Virus record (IMG/VR): IMGVR_UViG_3300032053_000247 | Span: 1-36,125 of that record | Origin: a virus | Strand: one strand, 5' to 3' | Length of the DNA: 36,125 bases | Shown: one piece after another, positions 20,112 to 33,430 of the stretch | Layout: the number at the start of each line of letters is the position of its first letter | Numbering within the stretch: the stretch's first letter is position 1 | Notes under the pieces: generated by a model | Seen by the model: the letters and a program-made list of their open reading frames with translations, nothing else | Databases searched by the model: none | Told to the model about the DNA's origin: nothing | Translations under genes and position numbers: made by a program

Positions 20112-20513
20112 TAGTGGAGGTAGTGGGATTCGAACCCACGTCCAATAAAGAAGACAATAAGTAAAACGTATCACATGCTTAGTACTGATCATTTCGTTGA
20201 TGTCAACAAAATGGTCTGCACCGTAAGGGGTTGACCGTTTATGGTCCGGATCCACCACTTGGTTTATTTAAAGTCTCGAACCAAGAACATTGACTATGCT
20301 TGTAACTTTCTGTTGCCAGGTTGTTACCACCCCGTATGTTAGGCAGCTATTGCTACTTCACCGAAGATAGACGCAAGAATTGCATCACCTTCTTCTACAC
20401 GCTGAAGAGAAGTCTTAGCGTTTATTTTTTAGCTCCGTGATTAAAGTGGTTTGAGAACCTTCCCACTGCATGTTTACCTACCTCTCGCTAAACTGTCGAT
20501 ACCTGTTACCCCC
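20112..20513 (-). ncRNA. ssrA: Transfer-messenger RNA (tmRNA) encoded by the phage
   Basis: 5' end GGGGGTA (20513-20507) pairs with TACCTCC (20122-20116), including the conserved G3-U pair recognised by AlaRS; discriminator A at 20115; next comes CTA, not CCA, so the host must add or repair CCA. The T-arm GTGGGTTCGAATCCCAC is intact. GGTAGGTAAACATGCAGTGG near the 5' end matches the Bacteroidota-type tmRNA start as I remember it. The resume region AAAAAATAAAC-GCT aligns with E. coli AAAAAATAGTC-GCA. The tag frame runs 20419-20339: AKTSLQRVEEGDAILASI, then FGEVAIAA and TAA, 26 residues, much longer than the usual host tag (GENNYALAA type). It would rescue stalled ribosomes and mark products for proteolysis. 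About 402 nt. Confidence 0.93.
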
Positions 20514-30252: not shown

Positions 30253-30761
30253 TAAAACTATTTGATATAGCAAGTGGTAAAGTGGTAGCATCAGAGCATT
30301 GCTATACATTAAAGTTCTTAAAAGATATAATGGATGCATATCCAAAAGAATATCTGCAAGTGTATACATATCTTTTTTATATGACCTGTCCTAATCCAGA
30401 TTTAAACCCATTCTTTCATTTTGTAGAATCAGAAAAAGAAGAAGTTATTCTAGAAGAAATAGGAGCAGAGTTTTCTACAGACGATGATCTTATTGTAAAG
30501 GGATTATCTATGTGTGAAAGAATGTATCAAACAGAAACATCAAGAGCTTACAATGGTATTAAAAAAGCTTTGGATAACATTGCTAGGTATATGAGTGCTA
30601 CACAAATTACAGATGGACGGGATGGTAATATTGCACAGATAGGTAGAATAGCAAAAGACTTTGATGCAATAAGACAATCTTATAAAGGAGTGTATAAAGA
30701 TTTAATTGAAGAACAACAATCAAGTGTGCGTGGTGGACAGAACTTAGCATACGACCAATAA
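30249..30761 (+). CDS. Conserved protein upstream of TerL, small-terminase candidate
   Basis: 170 residues, helical: YTLKFLKDIMDAYPKEYLQV, then long helices (LIVKGLSMCERMYQTETSRA, ALDNIARYMSATQI) and a polar C-terminus. No ATPase or nuclease motif. The position before two tRNAs and TerL, and the all-helical content, are compatible with a small terminase or other packaging adaptor; I cannot show this. Confidence 0.6.
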   Translation: MIKLFDIASGKVVASEHCYTLKFLKDIMDAYPKEYLQVYTYLFYMTCPNPDLNPFFHFVESEKEEVILEEIGAEFSTDDDLIVKGLSMCERMYQTETSRAYNGIKKALDNIARYMSATQITDGRDGNIAQIGRIAKDFDAIRQSYKGVYKDLIEEQQSSVRGGQNLAYDQ

Positions 30762-30832
30762 GGTGAGTTGGTAGAGTGGTTATACTACGGTCTGCAAAAC
30801 CGTCCACACAAGTTCGAATCTTGTACTCACCT
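30762..30832 (+). tRNA. tRNA-Cys (anticodon GCA)
   Basis: Acceptor GGTGAGT (30762-30768) with ACTCACC (30825-30831), discriminator T73 as in Cys tRNAs. Anticodon arm ACGGT-CTGCAAA-ACCGT with GCA at 30794-30796; T-arm ACAAG-TTCGAAT-CTTGT. The D-stem GTA/TAC is short. No encoded CCA. It lies between the small-terminase candidate and the second tRNA, 6 nt apart. Confidence 0.9.
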
Positions 30833-30838
30833 TAATAA

Positions 30839-30941
30839 TGTAAGGTGGTGGAACTGGCAGACACGCTACCTTGTCTCGGTAGTTTGTCACAACTCTTAAA
30901 CAAATTTGTGACAATTGAAGGTTCGAATCCTTCCTTTACAG
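30839..30941 (+). tRNA. tRNA of class II shape with Asp anticodon (GUC)
   Basis: 103 nt. Acceptor TGTAAGG (30839-30845) with CTTTACA (30934-30940); D-arm GTG-GAACTGGCAGA-CAC; anticodon stem CTACC/GGTAG, loop TTGTCTC, anticodon GTC at 30873-30875; T-arm GAAGG-TTCGAAT-CCTTC; discriminator G at 30941. The variable region is 34 nt and contains a perfect 9-bp hairpin, TTGTCACAA (30884-30892) with TTGTGACAA (30906-30914). The D-arm is Leu-like, while G34 U35 C36, C38, G10, G2-C71 and G73 agree with the known E. coli AspRS identity set. Position 37 is a pyrimidine, which is unusual. No encoded CCA. Confidence 0.85.
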
Positions 30942-30954
30942 CTAAAAAATAACT

Positions 30955-31230
30955 ATGAAAAAAAATGAATTACCAGAACACAATGAAGGATTTGGATCAT
31001 ACAAAGCAACAGAAAATGAAATTGAAAACTATCTTTATAATTGGGTCTTTCATTTTAATGCTTTCGATGGTGTTTGGTCTGCTATTCCTAGGGATGTTTA
31101 TAATCAGTATTGGAACAACCCTAATGTTGATGGTGTCATACGTAGCAAATCTATTAACACGCTTTCGGAAATCATTAACAAAACAAAAGGAAATATAAAG
31201 CTGATAGAAAAGTTTGTAGATGGAAAATAA
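30955..31230 (+). CDS. Hypothetical protein (91 aa)
   Basis: N-terminal KKNELPEHNEGFGSYKATEN, then a Trp/Phe-rich helix (YLYNWVFHFNAFDGVWSAIP) and a basic end. No motif. Starts 14 nt after the tRNA pair and overlaps TerL by 11 nt. Unrecognised. Confidence 0.6.
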   Translation: MKKNELPEHNEGFGSYKATENEIENYLYNWVFHFNAFDGVWSAIPRDVYNQYWNNPNVDGVIRSKSINTLSEIINKTKGNIKLIEKFVDGK

Positions 31231-33430
31231 TTATATTTCAGTTCCTGTATGGGAAAACGGTAAATGGTCAGTTCTTGATTTTGAAACAAGAGATGATTGG
31301 AAAGATTATGTGCGTTCTGTATTTAAAGATCAAGGACCAGATGTAGGATATGATTTTGATGAAACATCTTTTTTATTTAATGAACAAGGTAGGTATTTCC
31401 AAAAGAATGGATATTATTGCGCAGCACCTATAAGAACAAAAGATTATATCAGATATTGGGATGATCAAAAGAGTAAATGTAAAACAGGTGTCATATATAA
31501 AAATAATGGTAAGACTTGGTATTTAACCAGAGACTATTATATGTGGTTGAACTTTCTTCCAATATACGATAAGGAAGAAGCAAGGTTTGATTTTGCTAAA
31601 GTGAGAGATGCTCAGTATCATATGGCTCTTTATGAATGTTTAGCAGAACTTCATTTTAAACATTGTCCTATATTAAAGAAACGTCAGATAGCATCTTCTT
31701 ATTTCCATGCAGCAAAATTGATTAATGCATATTGGTTTGATGAAGGTGCTATTCTTAAGATGGGAGCTAGTCTTAAAGATTACATATCAGAGAAGGGTAC
31801 ATGGAGAATGCTTAATGAATATAAGAACTTTCTTAATGAACATACTGCGTGGTATCGTCCTAATGACCCAGATAAGGTGCTTGCTTGGCAGCAAAGGATC
31901 AAGGTAAGACTAAATGGTAGGGATACTTATAGAGGGTTATTTTCGGTCTTACAAGGAACATCGTTTGAAAAGGATGCAACAGCTGGTGTGGGTGGACCTT
32001 GTACTTATTTCTTTCATGAAGAAGCTGGTATTGCTCCTAAAATGAATGAAACCTATGAGTATATGCGTCCTGCTTTACAATCGGGTATGATTACAACAGG
32101 TACGTTTATAGCAGCAGGATCTGTGGGTGACCTTGATCAATGTGAACCATTAAAAGATTTTATTCTTAGACCAGAAGCTAATGATATGTTCCACGTGGAA
32201 ACATCACTTTTAGATTCAAAGGGTACGATTGGAATTACAGGATTATTTATACCAGAGCAGTGGAGTATGCCACCATACATAGATCAATATGGTAATTCAC
32301 TTGTTAAAGAAGCATTAGAAGCTATAATACACGAAAGACTTAAATGGAAACGAGATCTTGCACCAGAACAATACCAACTTCGTATCTCTCAGAAACCAAC
32401 TAATATAGAAGAAGCATTTGCTTTTAGAAAGGAATCGATATTCCCATTACACTTAGTTTCTAAACAAGCTCAAAGGGTTGATGATAAAACTTATGCTTAT
32501 GAATTCCTTGATTTACATAGAGATGACACCGGAAAGATAGTAGCACAGGATTCTAAAAAACTACCTATTAGTGAATTTCCAGTTTCTAAGAATATGGAAA
32601 ATAAAGAAGGAGTGGTGGTAGTTTGGGAACGTCCAGTTGCAAATCCTTCATTCTCAATGTATTACGCATCTATTGACCCTGTATCTGAAGGTAAGAGTAC
32701 AACTTCTGATTCTCTTTGTTCTATTTTTATCTATAAAAATCCAGTGGAAGTTACTTATGATGATGGATCTAATAGACCAAAAACTTATATAGAACATGAT
32801 AAGATAGTAGCTTCTTGGTGTGGTAGATATGATGATATTAATAAAACTCATGAAAGATTAGAGTTGATGATTGAGTGGTATAATGCTTGGACTATAGTGG
32901 AGAATAACATATCCTTATTCATCCAGTATATGATTTCTAGAAAGAAACAGCGTTACCTAGTACCAAAAGACCAGATTTTATTCCTAAAAGATTTAGGTTC
33001 AAATGCTACAGTGTACCAAACATATGGGTGGAAAAATACAGGAACGTTGTTTAAACAACATTTATTATCCTATGGTATTCAATACCTTACAGAGGAAATA
33101 GACCAAGAGATTGGAGATAATGGAGAGATTTATAAAACCACTTATGGGGTGGAGCGTATTCCAGATCCAATGCTTTTAAAAGAAATGGGGGCATACCATG
33201 AAGGTTTAAACGTTGACCGTTTGGTAGCTTTCTGTGCACTTATAGCATTTGCTAAGGTGCAACAATCCAATAGGGGATTGCAAAAACGAACTGAGTCTAT
33301 AAACAAAAACTTGGAAAAGTCAGAAAAAAGTTATAAATTAAAATTGAGTCCTTTTAGACATGTTGGTGGTTCTGGGTCATCCAGATCAGCTATGTCTAAA
33401 CCAAGATCACCATTTAAAAATTTCAGATGA
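31220..33430 (+). CDS. terL: Terminase large subunit
   Basis: 736 residues. ATPase domain: a deviant Walker A region KKRQIASS (153-160) and Walker B with catalytic Glu FFHEEAG (264-270). C-terminal RNase H-fold nuclease: YYASIDPVSEG with D486, WTIVENN with E561, and NVDRLVAF with D666 supply the metal ligands. Length and motif spelling match the TerL of crAss-like phages. It cuts concatemers and drives DNA into the prohead through the portal, whose gene follows. Confidence 0.9.
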   Translation: MENNYISVPVWENGKWSVLDFETRDDWKDYVRSVFKDQGPDVGYDFDETSFLFNEQGRYFQKNGYYCAAPIRTKDYIRYWDDQKSKCKTGVIYKNNGKTWYLTRDYYMWLNFLPIYDKEEARFDFAKVRDAQYHMALYECLAELHFKHCPILKKRQIASSYFHAAKLINAYWFDEGAILKMGASLKDYISEKGTWRMLNEYKNFLNEHTAWYRPNDPDKVLAWQQRIKVRLNGRDTYRGLFSVLQGTSFEKDATAGVGGPCTYFFHEEAGIAPKMNETYEYMRPALQSGMITTGTFIAAGSVGDLDQCEPLKDFILRPEANDMFHVETSLLDSKGTIGITGLFIPEQWSMPPYIDQYGNSLVKEALEAIIHERLKWKRDLAPEQYQLRISQKPTNIEEAFAFRKESIFPLHLVSKQAQRVDDKTYAYEFLDLHRDDTGKIVAQDSKKLPISEFPVSKNMENKEGVVVVWERPVANPSFSMYYASIDPVSEGKSTTSDSLCSIFIYKNPVEVTYDDGSNRPKTYIEHDKIVASWCGRYDDINKTHERLELMIEWYNAWTIVENNISLFIQYMISRKKQRYLVPKDQILFLKDLGSNATVYQTYGWKNTGTLFKQHLLSYGIQYLTEEIDQEIGDNGEIYKTTYGVERIPDPMLLKEMGAYHEGLNVDRLVAFCALIAFAKVQQSNRGLQKRTESINKNLEKSEKSYKLKLSPFRHVGGSGSSRSAMSKPRSPFKNFR

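Follow-up and report, generated by a model that had tools for sequence, protein, structure and literature searches.

The stretch analysed here, referred to as the window, comprises 36,125 nucleotides of the IMG/VR virus record IMGVR_UViG_3300032053_000247. On its plus strand, positions 30839..30941 hold a complete class II tRNA gene of the Asp type, 103 nt long including the discriminator G73, with CCA not encoded; the cloverleaf was confirmed from the sequence. An ordinary tRNA-Cys (GCA; 61 bits) occupies positions 30761..30833 (+), 5 nt upstream and on the same strand, and the two RNAs are probably co-transcribed. The class II RNA lies just upstream of the gene for the terminase large subunit (31220..33430, +; phrog_6681, 1.2e-59). 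The same phage also encodes a full tmRNA at 20114-20513 (-) (Rfam, 87.6 bits), whose predicted tag, AKTSLQRVEEGDAILASIFGEVAIAA, is unusually long.

Architecture and structural support of the class II RNA

The acceptor stem is formed by TGTAAGG (30839..30845, +) and CTTTACA, which is followed by G73 (30934..30941, +). Its seven pairs, one of them G-U, include U1-A72, G2-C71 and U3-A70. T8 and G9 precede a Leu-like D-arm, GTGGAACTGGCAGACAC (30848..30864, +), with a 3-bp stem and GGCA in the loop; within the D-loop GGCAG, position 20a is read as A, so that the U20a antideterminant is absent. After G26 comes the anticodon arm CTACC TTGTCTC GGTAG (30866..30882, +), with the stem CTACC/GGTAG and the loop T32 T33 G34 T35 C36 T37 C38, in which GUC lies at 30873-30875, U37 at 30876 and C38 at 30877. 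The variable region of 34 nt (30883..30916, +) contains a perfect 9-bp stem, TTGTCACAA/TTGTGACAA (30884-30892 / 30906-30914), closed by a 13-nt loop. The T-arm, GAAGG TTCGAAT CCTTC (30917..30933, +), completes an acceptor branch of the 7/5 type (7-bp acceptor, 5-bp T stem), not of the 8/4 or 9/3 types. Thus, every element listed in the initial annotation (complete cloverleaf, GUC, C38, G2-C71, G73, Leu-like D-arm, 34-nt variable region and 9-bp hairpin) is present.

Set against canonical tRNA-Asp, the RNA has G73, G34-U35-C36, C38 and G2-C71; it carries U1-A72 in place of G1-C72, a class II rather than a short class I variable loop, and T37 instead of a purine. Its class II shape and D-arm are those of tRNA-Leu, while A73 and a Leu anticodon are replaced by G73 and GUC. 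On its identity bases, it is therefore not the clean Leu or Ser tRNA that had been named as the finding that would overturn the initial reading.

A local search with the tRNA model RF00005 scores the RNA at 40.8 bits (gathering threshold 29). A whole-window Rfam search at the gathering threshold missed it, as did ARAGORN run on the window. Rfam at gathering thresholds likewise gave no match in 18 loci that hold family members, and ARAGORN calls only 2 of more than 100 host copies. It appears that the family went unnoticed because the usual programs for tRNAs and other RNAs fail to detect it; no description of it was found in the literature searched, and it is apparently an uncatalogued, large RNA family of Bacteroidota and their phages.

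Single-sequence folding of the window RNA gives a z of -2.25. In an alignment of 73 family sequences, 96.9% of cells in the cloverleaf and variable stems are paired, compared with 83.0% in shuffles, and changes on both sides occur in 22 of the 32 pairs; cells with double changes number 350, whereas shuffles gave 91 and slid controls no more than 50. Taken together, the folding, the occurrence of homologues in phage and host genomes that are numerous and independent, and the covarying cloverleaf place the RNA above chance. Pair 10-25 covaries too, exchanging A-U, U-A and G-C; for this reason G10, which the initial annotation counted among the Asp elements and which the window does carry, is not a family feature. 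A pairing between the D-loop and the anticodon loop (GGCAG/YUGUC or AGACA/UGUCU), attractive in RNAalifold, was discarded: the columns involved show no covariation at all, and UGUCUC persists alongside D-arms that have AAACA or UACA.

Distribution in phages and Bacteroidota chromosomes

A pattern scan of viral contigs recovered the same RNA from dozens of phage contigs. With a second pattern that left the anticodon free, at least 119 viral stretches matched, and among the matches listed nearly all have GUC (three have AUC) and G73. Among the matches listed, U1-A72 is found in 76 of 83 phage copies and A1-U72 in the other 7, and U33 is missing from about 12 of about 72. Many phage copies have dropped most of the variable domain, keeping the acceptor and anticodon elements. 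One phage subgroup (L012, L025, L027, L028 and L035) combines A1-U72 with a short variable arm capped by a GAAA tetraloop. The check proposed initially, looking in related phages for this variable hairpin and for compensatory changes in it, was borne out by comparison of L001, L109 and L117: related hairpins of the window type occur in L109 and in L099/L117, and an A-U pair has become G-C in L117. Among 80 related contigs, fetched through the terminase with no anticodon constraint, the RNA lies directly upstream of the terminase in about 16. A packaging RNA was considered, as the gene adjoins the terminase, and was set aside: in host chromosomes the RNA sits at other places, and it is missing from most of the related terminase loci.

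Chromosomal carriers among the matches listed include Chitinophaga, Pedobacter, Algoriphagus, Cyclobacterium, Spirosoma, Aquirufa and Saprospiraceae, among others. Under a covariance model, true members score 82-150 bits and stand apart from ordinary tRNA-Leu (<63 bits); the model finds members in about 31 of 296 genomes in a sample of G010's phylum and, for the order of G002, in 57 of 79. Host members mostly measure 108-195 nt, and some variable regions exceed 100 nt; they owe their greater length, relative to phage copies, to a structured domain in the variable region, which has the internal-loop strands GGATAAA ... GCTAAC, often together with GGGTTGACCAC. This internal loop and the GGGTTGACCAC motif are conserved in host variable domains (e.g., L306, 3494-3636) and absent from the short phage copies. 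Up to six copies of differing lengths may stand in tandem (e.g., G339:C1:3545330-3546434). At the other extreme, genome G088 has a class I-sized member of 76 nt (L381, 1339-1414, -; 70 bits) with the variable loop TACAATT and the loop CTATCTC, which shares its acceptor, D-arm and G73 with the family.

Conserved bases, regulatory neighbours and host enzymes

Counts from the earlier pattern scan of hosts are biased towards GUC and U33, and base conservation was instead read from 74 host genes chosen by the covariance model and not by anticodon pattern; since this model was trained on sequences containing GUC and U33, its bias, if any, is towards U33. In this set, U1-A72, G2-C71, U3-A70, U35, C36 and G73 are each present in 74/74 genes, followed by C38 (73/74), U37 (68/74) and G34 (64/74), and the loop motif GUCUC is conserved in the family. 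U33 is required for the U-turn of decoding tRNAs and is invariant in elongators. It is found in only 56 of the 74, the other 18 having G, C or A, so that the family does not behave as elongators do at this position. What selection maintains is therefore the set of synthetase elements together with the first acceptor pairs, and not the base needed for decoding. The window's own copy retains U33, and decoding by that phage copy may consequently occur. The 10 copies with a changed G34 include C34, giving a Glu-like CUC, and A34 also occurs. A CTCTCTC loop with the Glu-type CUC anticodon is found in L388 (genome G181), L464, L470 and L473; these few members may represent a Glu-to-Gln version, and G181 has AsnA and lacks GlnRS. 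A canonical tRNA-Asp with G1-C72, U33 and A37 was also present in 16 of 16 carrier genomes checked, which rejects the class II RNA as the only tRNA-Asp of its hosts.

An Lrp/AsnC gene diverges from the RNA, 110-270 bp upstream of it, at about 45-50 loci in hosts from several orders; the product of this gene matches E. coli AsnC best (119 bits, compared with 48 for Lrp). E. coli AsnC activates asnA, which encodes asparagine synthetase A, and does so less when asparagine is present (PMC8707732). Genes beyond the AsnC-type gene and downstream of the RNA vary by clade, and no conserved downstream enzyme gene was found at host loci. In 35 of 49 AsnC-type regions, a promoter of the Bacteroidota type (TTTG, 17-23 nt, TAnnTTTG) points at the RNA; shuffles gave a mean of 0.7 and a maximum of 3, and the other strand gave 1. 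Some leaders between promoter and RNA contain a boxA-like GTTCTTTAACAATT, as in rRNA operons (e.g., L279, L281 and L315). In a second lineage, the RNA occupies another locus, without AsnC.

GatB is encoded in 40/40 carriers and 33/40 non-carriers of a phylum sample uncorrected for ancestry, and in 49/49 carriers and 14/21 non-carriers of one order, an association confounded by ancestry. Overall, the RNA never occurs without GatB (89 of 89 carriers), and GatB occurs without the RNA; its presence in many non-carriers means that it cannot serve as an exact marker. Carriers also have AsnRS (40/40), GlnRS (34/40) and, less often, AsnA (5/40), counts again uncorrected for ancestry. An AsnB-family protein exceeds the cut-off in 34 of 40, leaving six carriers with neither AsnA nor AsnB over it, as has been described for 18 genera, Bacteroidetes among them (PMC4206432). 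A single bacterial-type AspRS was present in 29 of 29 genomes, and none of them has His at a position presumed to be diagnostic of the non-discriminating (ND) enzyme. No gene that would release Asn was found.

A proposed RNA cofactor and its rivals

AspRS needs G73, G34-U35-C36, C38 and G2-C71 (PMC9976931), and in the amidation of Asp-tRNA U1-A72 is a positive element, while G1-C72 and U20a are negative ones (PMC9976931; PMC4206432). The features of a GatCAB substrate are accordingly found here: U1-A72, no U20a, and a host GatCAB, scored on GatB. Because the RNA unites the AspRS set with the amidation set, unlike ordinary tRNA-Asp or tRNA-Asn, the most likely role is that of a dedicated non-decoding tRNA, charged by AspRS and amidated by GatCAB through U1-A72, acting as an RNA cofactor for asparagine synthesis; judged from sequence, we give this reading a probability of roughly 0.45. 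That synthetase and amidation marks are kept and the decoding base is often lost suggests, more generally, that the family probably serves amino-acid metabolism and not codon reading. The Leu-to-Asp chimera proposed initially is supported: throughout the family, a body of Leu type, class II in shape and with the Leu D-arm, bears Asp identity (GUC, C38, G73 and G2-C71). A Leu-type class II tRNA would thus have given rise to an Asp-type, mostly non-decoding family of Bacteroidota. AspRS would load aspartate by way of G73, U35, C36, C38, G2-C71 and usually G34, and U1-A72 in place of G1-C72 would let GatCAB convert Asp to Asn on the RNA. The variable domain, U37 and frequent U33 loss may keep the product off the ribosome, as Asn would otherwise enter at Asp codons. 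Asparagine would then have to be released, AsnC would control the cofactor, and phages would carry a trimmed copy, presumably to their benefit. The wider proposition of a new kind of RNA cofactor, codon-blind, Asp-charged, GatCAB-amidated and AsnC-controlled, present in a large part of Bacteroidota and borrowed by phages, is put forward tentatively.

Several findings count against the cofactor reading: GatB in 14/21 non-carriers, A1-U72 in 7/83 phage copies, changed G34 in 10/74 host copies, and no gene found that would free Asn from the RNA. The AsnB-family protein of 34/40 carriers would often make the proposed Asn route redundant, and since G1-C72 helps E. coli AspRS to place the 3' end, U1-A72 might slow charging. 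A related reading, which we consider doubtful, stops at the charged and unamidated Asp-tRNA, acting as an aspartate donor to another acceptor or, through its variable domain, reporting aspartate/asparagine to AsnC or the translation machinery. It draws on the same AspRS determinants and U33 loss, on the AsnC neighbour and on the structured variable domain with its conserved internal loop and GGGTTGACCAC motif; it leaves invariant U1-A72 and constant GatB in carriers unexplained, there is no conserved downstream enzyme gene, and many phages shed most of the variable domain while keeping the acceptor and anticodon elements.

That the RNA is simply an oddly shaped elongator tRNA-Asp isoacceptor decoding GAC/GAU is improbable. 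The GUC anticodon, G18G19, a normal T-loop, U33 in most copies (the window's included) and the frequency of tRNAs in phages speak for it, but U33 is lost in 18/74 host copies and, among the phage matches listed, about 12/72, pyrimidine 37 is nearly fixed, canonical tRNA-Asp is present in 16/16 genomes and some variable regions exceed 100 nt. A decoy or nuclease-resistant tRNA directed at anticodon nucleases or other tRNA-targeting defences is very improbable: the RNA is phage-borne, and colicin E5-type nucleases read UGU, which the loop offers, yet every copy without U33 also lacks an intact UGU, and a loop decoy needs neither invariant acceptor pairs nor G73. Many Bacteroidota have the RNA as a conserved chromosomal gene under a promoter of its own, which leaves the phage-specific version suggested by the initial annotation unsupported. 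Least probable of all is a class II tRNA charged with Ser or Leu and mis-inserting these at Asp codons. SerRS and bacterial LeuRS are not known to depend on the anticodon, yet U35, C36 and C38 are fixed; G73 stands where Leu has A73, miscoding on a global scale would carry a high cost, and U33 loss argues against decoding. In its favour stand the Leu-like D-arm and the long variable arm with G73, which suits SerRS (PMC7609411).

A widespread RNA gene family thus appears to have been overlooked until now. Should the cofactor role be true, the family would clearly exemplify tRNAs retained for amino-acid metabolism instead of decoding, and a discriminating AspRS could supply the tRNA-dependent route to asparagine with no need to mischarge tRNA-Asn. 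That role would also explain the retention of GatCAB in many Bacteroidota that possess both AsnRS and GlnRS, a combination noted previously (PMC4206432).

Among known systems, canonical bacterial tRNA-Asp (GUC) has GUC, C38, G73 and G2-C71 in common with the family and differs in being class I, with G1-C72, A37 and U33. Bacterial tRNA-Leu shares the D-arm, T8G9 and class II shape and is the likely source of the family's body, whereas it has A73, Leu anticodons and no long structured variable domain. The staphylococcal tRNA-Gly for the cell wall is a non-proteogenic tRNA, and its non-ribosomal job parallels the role proposed here, with another amino acid, other structural changes and a different proposed enzyme. 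Bacterial tRNA-Asn of the two-step route (ND-AspRS + GatCAB) resembles the family in G73, U1-A72 and Asp charging with possible subsequent amidation, as well as in the genome context of AsnRS + GatCAB (PMC4206432). Unlike it, the family has GUC (and so needs no relaxed AspRS), a class II shape, pyrimidine 37 and a U33 that is often lost, and its product could not decode Asn codons. Finally, allo-tRNAs and selC-like tRNAs also combine a long variable arm with non-Ser anticodons, and GUC has been reported among 8/4 allo-tRNAs (Mukai et al. 2017, reviewed in PMC7609411); in contrast to their 8/4 or 9/3 branches, the family has a 7/5 acceptor branch, a Leu-like body and U33 loss.
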